From assembly GCA_013297625.1 (NCBI GenBank), contig JAAFHT010000014.1:1-36648 (forward strand): a stretch of DNA of 36,648 nt. Reading direction: 5' to 3'. The notes under the pieces were generated by a model. It did not search any database, was not told the DNA's origin, and worked only from the letters and a program-made list of their open reading frames with translations. Positions within the stretch are counted from its first letter, which is position 1. Each line of letters opens with the position of its first letter. A program made the position numbers and the translations under genes. Below are positions 27,196 through 36,072 of this stretch, in pieces. The stretch is from Actinomycetota bacterium (GTDB lineage: Bacteria > Actinomycetota > Actinomycetes > Actinomycetales > Microbacteriaceae).

Positions 27196-27792
27196 TCAGC
27201 GGGTGGGAAGGGTCGTGGGGCGCCAGCTTTCACGGCGCGCTTCAAAGTCGGTGATTGCCTGTTCATCGCGCAAGGTCAGGCCGATGTCGTCGAGGCCTTC
27301 GAGCAGGCGCCAACGCGTGTAGTCGTCAATCTCGAACGGCACGGTGATATTCCCCACCGACACGGTGCGCTCGACGAGGTCGACCGTGGCATCCATGCCC
27401 GGGTTGGCTTCGAGCTCGGTCCAGAGAGTCTCGACTGTCGCTTCGTCGACGACGCCCACGAGCAGACCCTGCTTGCCGGCGTTGCCGCGGAAGATGTCGG
27501 CGAACTTTGGGCTGATGACCGCGGCGAAGCCGAAGTCGCGCAACGCCCAGACCGCGTGCTCACGGCTCGATCCGGTGCCGAAGTCAGAGCCGGCAATGAG
27601 GATGCGCGGGTTGGCGTATTCGGGTCGGTTGAGAATGAACTCGGGGTCTTGCCGCCACGCCGAGAAGAGCGCGTCGTCGTAGCCCGTCTTCGTCACTCGC
27701 TTGAGAAACACCGCGGGGATGATCTGGTCGGTGTCGACGTTGCTGCGGCGGAACGGAACCGCGACGCCCGTGATCGTGCTGACCTTTTCCAT
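27196..27792 (-). CDS. leuD: 3-isopropylmalate dehydratase small subunit
   Basis: The 198-residue small subunit of isopropylmalate isomerase (LeuCD) in leucine synthesis. Typical segments are [55 protein letters not shown] and the C-terminal [18 protein letters not shown]. It starts 3 nt after the leuC stop, without its own clear ribosome site, so translation is probably coupled to leuC. Confidence 0.97.
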
Positions 27793-27795
27793 GAT

Positions 27796-29274
27796 CTAGA
27801 CCGTCGCCCCTTCGATCGTGGAGAACCGAGGATCGACCTCGATACCGTCGGCCATGAGGTCGCTCACGCTCGAGAGCGTTCCGCGAATCGCCGTCGATGC
27901 GGCGACGAGCGGCGACACGAGGTGCGTGCGCCCGCCCTTGCCTTGCCGGCCTTCGAAGTTGCGGTTGCTCGTCGACGCGCAGCGCTGACCCGGCTGCAGC
28001 TGGTCGGGGTTCATGCCCAAGCACATCGAGCATCCGGCGAAGCGCCACTCGGCACCGAAGGCTTCGACGATCTTGTCGATGCCCTCCGCCTCGGCCTCAA
28101 GCCGCACGCGTGCCGAGCCGGGCACGACGATGACGTCAACACCCTCGGCCTTCTTCTGCCCCTTGATGATCGAAGCGAAGGCGCGCAAGTCGTCGAGTCG
28201 GCTGTTGGTGCACGAGCCCATGAAGACCACGTCGACCGGAATCTGCTTCATGGGCGTGCCCGGCGTCAGGTCCATGTATTCGAGCGCGCGCTCAGCGGCG
28301 GCGCGCTCGTTCGCGTCGATGATCGTCGCGGGGTCGGGAACCGACTGGCTGAGCGAAATGCCCTGGCCAGGGTTCGTGCCCCACGTGACGAAAGGCTCGA
28401 GCTCATTGGCGTCGAGGAAGACTTCGGCGTCGAAGACGGCGTCGTCATCGGTGGCGAGAGTGTTCCAGTAGGCCACGGCCGCATCCCAGTCGGCGCCCTC
28501 GGGAGCGTGGGCTCGGCCCTTCAGGTAGGCGTAGGTCGTCTCGTCGGGGGCGACCATTCCGGCGCGGGCGCCCGCCTCGATCGACATGTTGCAGATCGTC
28601 ATGCGGCCATCCATCGACAGCGCGCGGATGGCCGAGCCACGGTACTCGAGCACATAACCCTGGCCGCCGCCCGTGCCGATCTTGGCGATGACCGCGAGAA
28701 TGATGTCTTTCGCCGTCACGCCCGGCTTGAGCTCGCCCTCGACGGTGATGGCCATGGTCTTGAACGGCTGCAGCGGCAGCGTTTGCGTCGCGAGCACGTG
28801 CTCGACCTCGCTCGTGCCGATGCCAAAGGCCATGGCGCCGAACGCGCCGTGCGTGCTCGTGTGCGAGTCGCCGCACACAACCGTGATGCCCGGCTGGGTC
28901 AGCCCGAGCTGCGGGCCCACGACGTGCACGATGCCCTGCTCGATGTCGCCGAGCGAGTGCAAGCGAATGCCGAACTCTTTCGCGTTAGCGCGCAACGTCT
29001 CGATCTGGATGCGGCTCGTCGGCTCGACGATGGGCTTATCGATCGCGAGCGTCGGAGTGTTGTGGTCTTCGGTCGCGATCGTGAGGTCGGGGCGACGCAC
29101 GGGGCGGCCGGCCATCCGCAGCCCATCGAAGGCTTGCGGGCTCGTCACCTCGTGCACCAAGTGCAGGTCGATGTAGAGCAGATCGGGCTCGCCGTTCTCG
29201 CCCTTGGCGACGAGATGGGCATCCCAGACCTTTTCGGCCAGGGTGCGAGGGCGGTGGTGTGGCGTCTCGTTCAT
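27796..29274 (-). CDS. leuC: 3-isopropylmalate dehydratase large subunit
   Basis: The catalytic subunit (492 residues) that isomerises 2- and 3-isopropylmalate. It begins [12 protein letters not shown], has [20 protein letters not shown], and keeps the three 4Fe-4S cysteines in [14 protein letters not shown] and [16 protein letters not shown] 29274 is preceded by AAGGG at a rather long 13-nt distance. Part of that site can pair with a segment after the leader peptide stop, so leuC translation may be under attenuation control by the leucine leader (29354-29401). The operon continues with leuD and possibly murA. Confidence 0.97.
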
Positions 29275-29353
29275 GCTGGGGAAATCACCCTTCTAACAAG
29301 GAATGCGAAGCGGCCGCGCCAGAACTCCGCGACGAGGATGCGACCTGGGGTGA
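29275..29353 (-). promoter_or_regulatory. leuC leader with attenuator-like pairings
   Basis: Stem A joins CCGCGACGAG (29369-29360, in the last codons of the leader peptide) with CTCGTCGCGG (29336-29327), a perfect 10-bp match around a 23-nt loop. Segment ATCACCC (29354-29348), inside that loop, can pair with GGGTGAT (29290-29284), which overlaps the leuC ribosome site. No T-run follows, so control may act on translation or through Rho. Confidence 0.65.
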
Positions 29354-29401
29354 TCAGGACTCGTCGCGGCGACGAAGAAGAAGCCGCGTCTTGTGCCGCA
29401 T
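29354..29401 (-). CDS. leuL: Leucine leader peptide
   Basis: A 15-codon ORF encoding MRHKTRLLLRRRDES. It contains three consecutive CTT leucine codons, an uncommon leucine codon in this GC-rich DNA, at 29383-29375. It is upstream of leuCD on the same strand. Its ATG is 7 nt after TAGCCT, so it is probably the leaderless first ORF of the transcript. When leucyl-tRNA is short a ribosome would stall on the CTT run just before the 5' arm of stem A. Leucine leader peptides are known or predicted upstream of leu and ilv genes in several actinobacteria. Confidence 0.82.
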   Translation of the reverse strand: MRHKTRLLLRRRDES

Positions 29402-29408
29402 GCCGTTC

Positions 29409-29414
29409 AGGCTA
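29409..29414 (-). promoter_or_regulatory. -10 box of the leuL-leuCD transcript
   Basis: TAGCCT lies 7 nt before the leuL ATG and directly abuts the terC stop codon, so the -35 region is inside the terC coding sequence. No good -35 match is visible. Confidence 0.55.
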
Positions 29415-31019: not shown

Positions 31020-31092
31020 TGACCCCAGCGGGATTCGAACCCGCGTTACCGCCGTGAGAGGGCGGCGTACTAGGCCGCTATACGATGGGGCC
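31020..31092 (-). tRNA. tRNA-Glu (anticodon CTC)
   Basis: A 73-nt gene. The acceptor stem is GGCCCCA/TGGGGTC with discriminator A; the anticodon stem CCGCC/GGCGG holds the loop CTCTCAC with anticodon CTC, reading GAG. The T arm contains GGTTCGAATCC. CCA is not encoded. A strong terminator follows immediately. Confidence 0.97.
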
Positions 31093-36000: not shown

Positions 36001-36072
36001 CTGGGGTGCCTGGACTCGAACCAAGAACAACTGAACCAGAATCAGCCGTGTTGCCAATTACACCACACCCCA
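36001..36072 (-). tRNA. tRNA-Gln (anticodon CTG)
   Basis: A 72-nt gene. The acceptor stem is TGGGGTG/CACCCCA with discriminator G; the anticodon stem GCTGA/TCAGT holds the loop TTCTGGT with anticodon CTG, reading CAG. The T arm has GGTTCGAGTCC. CCA is not encoded. No terminator is evident before the convergent glycerate kinase stop. Confidence 0.96.

Follow-up and report, generated by a model that had tools for sequence, protein, structure and literature searches.

Leucine leaders described upstream of leuA and the locus upstream of leuC

The LEU element was described in Actinobacteria by Seliverstov et al. 2005 (PMC1262725), where it stands before leuA and, in one case, lies within a transposase gene. 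According to the same paper, which cites the experiments, mutations in the Leu codons of Streptomyces coelicolor leuA did not fit classical attenuation and a binding protein was proposed. In Streptomyces lividans, a leader peptide before leuA, LeuL1 (MRFGLLLLSCRGEGL), is reported to be leaderless as judged from RNA-seq and to lack a typical terminator (PMC8079986). In Corynebacterium glutamicum, the leuA leader peptide is encoded by a short ORF that contains a run of four Leu codons (PMC4046766 and PMC8709942). The genes leuCD themselves are described as being controlled by NdgR and its orthologs, whose genes are adjacent to leuCD (PMC4340878); NdgR/LtbR are IclR-type DNA-binding proteins that act on the same genes as the leader described here, which is in contrast an RNA. 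No report of a LEU-type leader at leuC was found in the open-licence literature. Leaderless polycysteine ORFs reportedly attenuate cys operons in mycobacteria, going by the title of a study by Canestrari from 2020. By that title, these ORFs are like the present leader in being leaderless and rich in the product amino acid of the operon, but the amino acid is cysteine and the genes are different.

The window (the whole stretch of DNA that was analysed, 36,648 nucleotides) carries upstream of leuC a leader that was assigned as a putative LEU element by its layout. The likeness comprised a run of Leu codons in a leader ORF (three CTT in the window), a conserved pseudoknot (helix GGTCGC/GCGGCC in the window; 0/5000 partner swaps as good), a base stem between the Leu run and the Shine-Dalgarno site that was found across relatives and was weak in the window (-6.5 kcal/mol), and the recognition of leuA leaders, both in the source genome and outside the family, by a covariance model (R1) made from leuC leaders. 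The published place of the element is leuA, whereas the copy in the window is at leuC; position by itself is not a defining feature, as the 2005 paper gives the transposase copy the same name. LeuL1 also serves leuA and its peptide is closely like those of the family leuA leaders (e.g., VRFGLLLLSCRDES of L114), whereas the leuC leader peptide of the window, MRHKTRLLLRRRDES, shares with it mainly the Leu run and the stem-encoded end. The C. glutamicum leader likewise serves leuA. Overall, the leader of the window is probably a LEU-element-type translational attenuator by leucine that serves leuCD, for which a leaderless start, ribosome stalling, the direction of control and a response to leucine are predicted.

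Anatomy of the leader in the source genome

The features of the leader and of the genes behind it were located as follows:

29275-29414, minus strand: leader region upstream of leuC
29409-29414, minus strand: -10-like box TAGCCT, directly 3' of the terC TGA and 7 nt before the ORF start
29354-29401, minus strand: leader ORF MRHKTRLLLRRRDES followed by TGA, 15 codons, ATG at 29401 and TGA at 29356-29354, probably leaderless by its spacing
29375-29383, minus strand: three CTT Leu codons CTTCTTCTT, regulatory codons and proposed anti-Shine-Dalgarno
29360-29369, minus strand: 5' arm CCGCGACGAG of a perfect 10-bp stem, beginning 5 nt past the CTT run
29327-29336, minus strand: 3' arm CTCGTCGCGG of the perfect 10-bp stem
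29340-29345, minus strand: pseudoknot loop strand GGTCGC, which pairs with GCGGCC (position counted from motif positions)
29312-29317, minus strand: pseudoknot 3' strand GCGGCC, in a helix with GGTCGC
29288-29294, minus strand: AGAAGGG, likely ribosome-binding site of leuC
29348-29354, minus strand: ATCACCC, proposed in the sequence-only reading as the loop partner of GGGTGAT (29284-29290)
27796-29274, minus strand: leuC, large subunit of 3-isopropylmalate dehydratase (LeuC by NCBIfam)
27196-27792, minus strand: leuD-like ORF, small subunit, 3 nt past leuC, named by position and sequence

The coordinates, the 15-codon ORF, the three CTT codons, the 10-bp stem and the 5-nt gap between them had been given in the sequence-only reading and were all exact on the minus strand, and the -10 box that it placed against the terC stop codon was found there as TAGCCT. 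Its statement that a U-run terminator is missing agreed with a simple consensus scan, which showed no terminator-like site in the leader; a sigma-70-like site was likewise absent from the leader in a simple consensus scan. A search of the window with Rfam 15 produced only tRNAs and chance-level matches and left the leader unmatched, while the leuA leaders L144, L145 and L188 had no Rfam 15 match at an E value of up to 0.1. The two tRNA genes of the window (RF00005) are on the minus strand at 31020-31092 and 36001-36072. The single-sequence fold of the leader was unremarkable with a z-score of -0.52, and the window contained 5 perfect inverted repeats of 10 bp with 12-30 nt in the loop, compared to 0-4 (mean 1.2) in 20 mononucleotide shuffles. 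The leader was placed above chance by the conservation of its layout before leuC in 97 of the 145 leuC-bearing Microbacteriaceae genomes sampled and not by structure alone.

Occurrence upstream of leuC in Microbacteriaceae

The model R1 was built from 43 leuC leaders, the rows of which were picked by a 5'-arm pattern and a CT-CT requirement with one duplicate dropped. The leader of the source genome is one of these rows and scored 64.6 bits. A pattern-free count was made on the leuC upstreams of 150 sampled Microbacteriaceae genomes, and leuC was present in 145. R1 matched upstream of leuC in 97 of the 145 (64/100 and 33/45) with a weakest score of 48.3 bits, a count that is not independent of the model since R1 consists of family leuC leaders, 25 of them from genomes counted, and near relatives match by construction. 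The other 48 genomes had no match at leuC. Among the best 80 of 596 named leuC loci, the leader was at leuC in 18, all of them within the 26 Microbacteriaceae rows; the 54 non-Microbacteriaceae loci were mostly sorted by record title and include several uncultured bins without a family name. The presence of the leader on the LeuC tree was patchy with 8 changes over 67 rows and many forks open, and either one gain with losses or several gains are possible.

Eight Microbacteriaceae loci (L010, L011, L014, L017, L018, L022, L023 and L025) had leuC with neither the leader nor a divergent IclR-type gene. In addition, the Microbacteriaceae genomes G036, G046, G048, G060 and G080 each encode another LeuC-like protein, with 57-87% identity to the LeuC of the window.

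Leader ORF and leucine codons

A Leu-rich ORF before leuC had been expected in relatives and was found in 95 of the 97 family leuC leaders, where the frame of the Leu run opens with a start codon 3-10 nt past a TANNNT box; the distance was 6 or 7 nt in 94. The ORF stop was inside the hairpin loop in all 97 leaders. At least two consecutive Leu codons were present in 96 of them and at least three in 84. In a smaller set, all 56 leuC leaders showed the -10-like box 5-8 nt before the ORF start, as did 95 of the 97. Leader ORFs varied in length from 10 to 18 codons without loss of frame. The combined leuC and leuA set comprised 113 gene-assigned leaders out of 116 found, the three without a gene being left out. 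An ORF of this layout was present in 113/113, whereas shuffling of the upstream sequences left on average 2.1 and at most 8 of the 113 with one. Box-to-start spacing in this set was 5-7 nt for the family leaders and 6-10 nt for the class leuA leaders, and such spacing points to a leaderless leader ORF. CTT accounted for 186 of the 368 Leu codons in the 95 leader ORFs and for 5 of the 146 Leu codons in leuC, leuD, murA and terC of the window. This codon choice alone is no proof of rare-codon sensing because CTT is also suited to pairing with ribosome sites of the GAAG type.

Stem, pseudoknot and pairing with the ribosome site

The stem of the source genome proved to be conserved, and a check for covariation showed 99.8% of stem cells paired in leader alignment A1 (pattern-selected rows), with two pairs that change on both sides. 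The arms were nearly invariant, as 6 of the 10 pairs never vary in the 43 rows, which were themselves selected by the 5'-arm pattern. The other pairings were examined with swap tests that compared own pairing partners with partners permuted between species, both in the 97 family leuC leaders and in 57 representatives below 80% identity. For the pseudoknot, in which the loop pairs with sequence downstream of the hairpin, 0/5000 swaps were as good as the own partners in the 97 leaders and 0/5000 in the representatives. The pseudoknot helices differ between species, such as CAGGC/GCCTG, CGGCC/GGCCG and ACCGACC/GGTCGGT (a comparison without its own control), and the 3' strand starts 10 or 11 nt past the stem in 62 of the 97 leaders. 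An earlier pseudoknot test with other windows was not significant in 56 leuC leaders (294/2000 by energy and 479/2000 by longest helix) and at leuA gave 0/2000 in 38 family leaders and 2/2000 in 19 class leaders; the later test of 97 leaders enlarged the set and narrowed the windows together, which means that the windows were altered between the two tests.

Pairing of the Leu run with the ribosome site gave 0/5000 in the 97 leaders. When the ribosome site was placed by gene start, the result was 6/2000 for leuC (54 of 56 leaders), 1/2000 for family leuA (38 leaders) and 41/2000 for class leuA (19 leaders). The control pairing of the ORF 5' end with the downstream stretch gave 15/5000 in the 97 leaders, and in the second test 747, 1501 and 302 of 2000 for leuC, family leuA and class leuA, respectively; the control pairing of the 3' arm with the ribosome-binding site gave 768, 56 and 492 of 2000 in the same order. 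Since the control segments also show some preference for their own partners, kinship explains part of the pairing signal.

The sequence-only reading had paired the loop segment ATCACCC with GGGTGAT around the leuC ribosome site. This duplex is indeed strong in the source genome (8 bp, -12.6 kcal/mol), but the claim did not extend to relatives, in which swapped partners were often as good as their own (1456/5000 in the 97 leaders and 1117/5000 in the representatives; 1579, 1061 and 744 of 2000 for leuC, family leuA and class leuA). Sequence comparison showed that the segment pair is absent from the same-genus leaders L083 and L084. Overall, of the two candidate partners of the ribosome site, the Leu run was conserved better (2/5000 in the 57 representatives with the ORF 5' end control at 196/5000), and the 8-bp duplex may be due to chance or act as a second anti-Shine-Dalgarno particular to the source species. 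L083 and L084 have a GAAGAAGG-type site where the source genome has the duplex.

Proposed mechanism and alternatives

In the proposed translational attenuation, transcription probably starts at or beside the leader AUG, and translation of the ORF would then need no Shine-Dalgarno site. With ample leucyl-tRNA, the ribosome would clear the CTT run, halt at the UGA in the hairpin loop and depart, after which the hairpin and the pseudoknot would form and the Leu run could pair with the leuC ribosome-binding site, leaving leuCD poorly translated. Under a shortage of leucyl-tRNA, the ribosome would stall on CTT and mask both the anti-Shine-Dalgarno and the 5' arm, and leuCD would be translated. Folding with a placed ribosome was computed as secondary structure without pseudoknots. 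Over 54 leuC leaders, the modelled unpaired fraction of the ribosome site averaged 0.29 when free, 0.53 with the ribosome on the second Leu codon and 0.34 with the ribosome on the stop; compared to the free state, the ribosome on the second Leu codon opened the modelled site in 49 of the 54. The corresponding modelled values were 0.27, 0.49 and 0.30 for 37 family leuA leaders and 0.26, 0.43 and 0.32 for 18 class leuA leaders. For the source genome, the modelled site was equally open with the ribosome on the Leu codon (0.53) and on the stop codon (0.52). Translational attenuation was favoured because of the modelled opening of the ribosome site and the missing terminator. Control of translation had been one of the options in the sequence-only reading and is likelier than classical transcription attenuation given the conserved ORF and stem and the lack of a terminator-like site. 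The pseudoknot, the pairing of the Leu run with the ribosome-binding site, the probable leaderless start, the leuA copy and the missing IclR-type gene were all absent from that account.

Classical ribosome-mediated terminator attenuation was rejected, as a simple consensus scan found no intrinsic terminator with a U run before leuC. A scheme in which the leader transcript is shortened when leucine is plentiful, by Rho-dependent or other transcription attenuation, would agree with the negative terminator scan and was also proposed for cys leaders without terminators (PMC1262725); it is considered quite improbable, and the preference of the Leu run and the ribosome site for their own partners would have no role in a Rho-type scheme. 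It is unlikely, too, that the leader serves to bind a regulatory protein that would recognise the shape of the pseudoknot, the Leu ORF being secondary. Seliverstov et al. (PMC1262725) put such binding forward for the leuA leaders, and the near invariance of the stem arms in the pattern-selected rows would suit it, but the in-frame Leu ORF, which ends in the loop and keeps its frame over 10-18 codons, argues that translation matters. Sequestration of the ribosome site by the loop segment ATCACCC, the scheme of the sequence-only reading, draws on the stability of the duplex in the source genome and appears highly improbable as the general mechanism, given that relatives showed no preference for their own partners and that the segment pair is missing in L083 and L084; the pairing could be an addition peculiar to the source species.

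Copies upstream of leuA and the neighbouring regulator gene

R1 matched two places in the source genome, the window and G000:C13:14293-14379 (84.2 bits), and the gene behind the latter encodes 2-isopropylmalate synthase (leuA). At least one R1 match was found in 144 of the 150 Microbacteriaceae genomes sampled. Of 197 genomes sampled from the class, 178 had a match, nine of these being Microbacteriaceae. For the non-family class loci L178-L198, leuA was behind the R1 match in 20/21, and no gene match was obtained before the end of L192.

A divergent IclR-type gene within 1.5 kb of leuC was present at 52 of the 54 loci outside Microbacteriaceae vs none of the 26 inside, as counted in the best 80 of the 596 named leuC loci, some with only a few hundred bases upstream. 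IclR-type protein matches at an E value of up to 1e-20 were found in 5/100 Microbacteriaceae genomes, the best among the matches listed being 41% identical, and a close NdgR/LtbR relative was not found among the Microbacteriaceae examined. NCBIfam matched the IclR-type gene only to differently named IclR models, at scores under the model cut-offs, and its designation as an NdgR/LtbR ortholog beside non-family leuC rests on place and family. Microbacteriaceae thus seem to have lost the NdgR/LtbR-type regulator beside leuCD. We lean slightly towards the fuller account in which the family lost this regulator and copied the leuA leader to leuCD; both steps would then be under a single RNA device whose regulatory codons are themselves the anti-Shine-Dalgarno. 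This looks like the replacement of a protein regulator by an RNA leader and would be datable on the species tree. For the LEU element, the occurrence of the leader at another gene, with 97 natural variants in the sample, shows that the kept parts are the stop position, the pseudoknot and the pairing of the Leu run with the ribosome site.

Weak R1 matches in L166-L169 (26-28 bits) were treated as noise, with no LeuA- or LeuC-like start behind them. Finally, a third leader copy was observed before a second LeuA-like gene in four of the Microbacteriaceae genomes examined (L160, L163, L164 and L165), at about 1501-1587, with scores of 54.8, 49.7, 44.9 and 30.8 bits, respectively.
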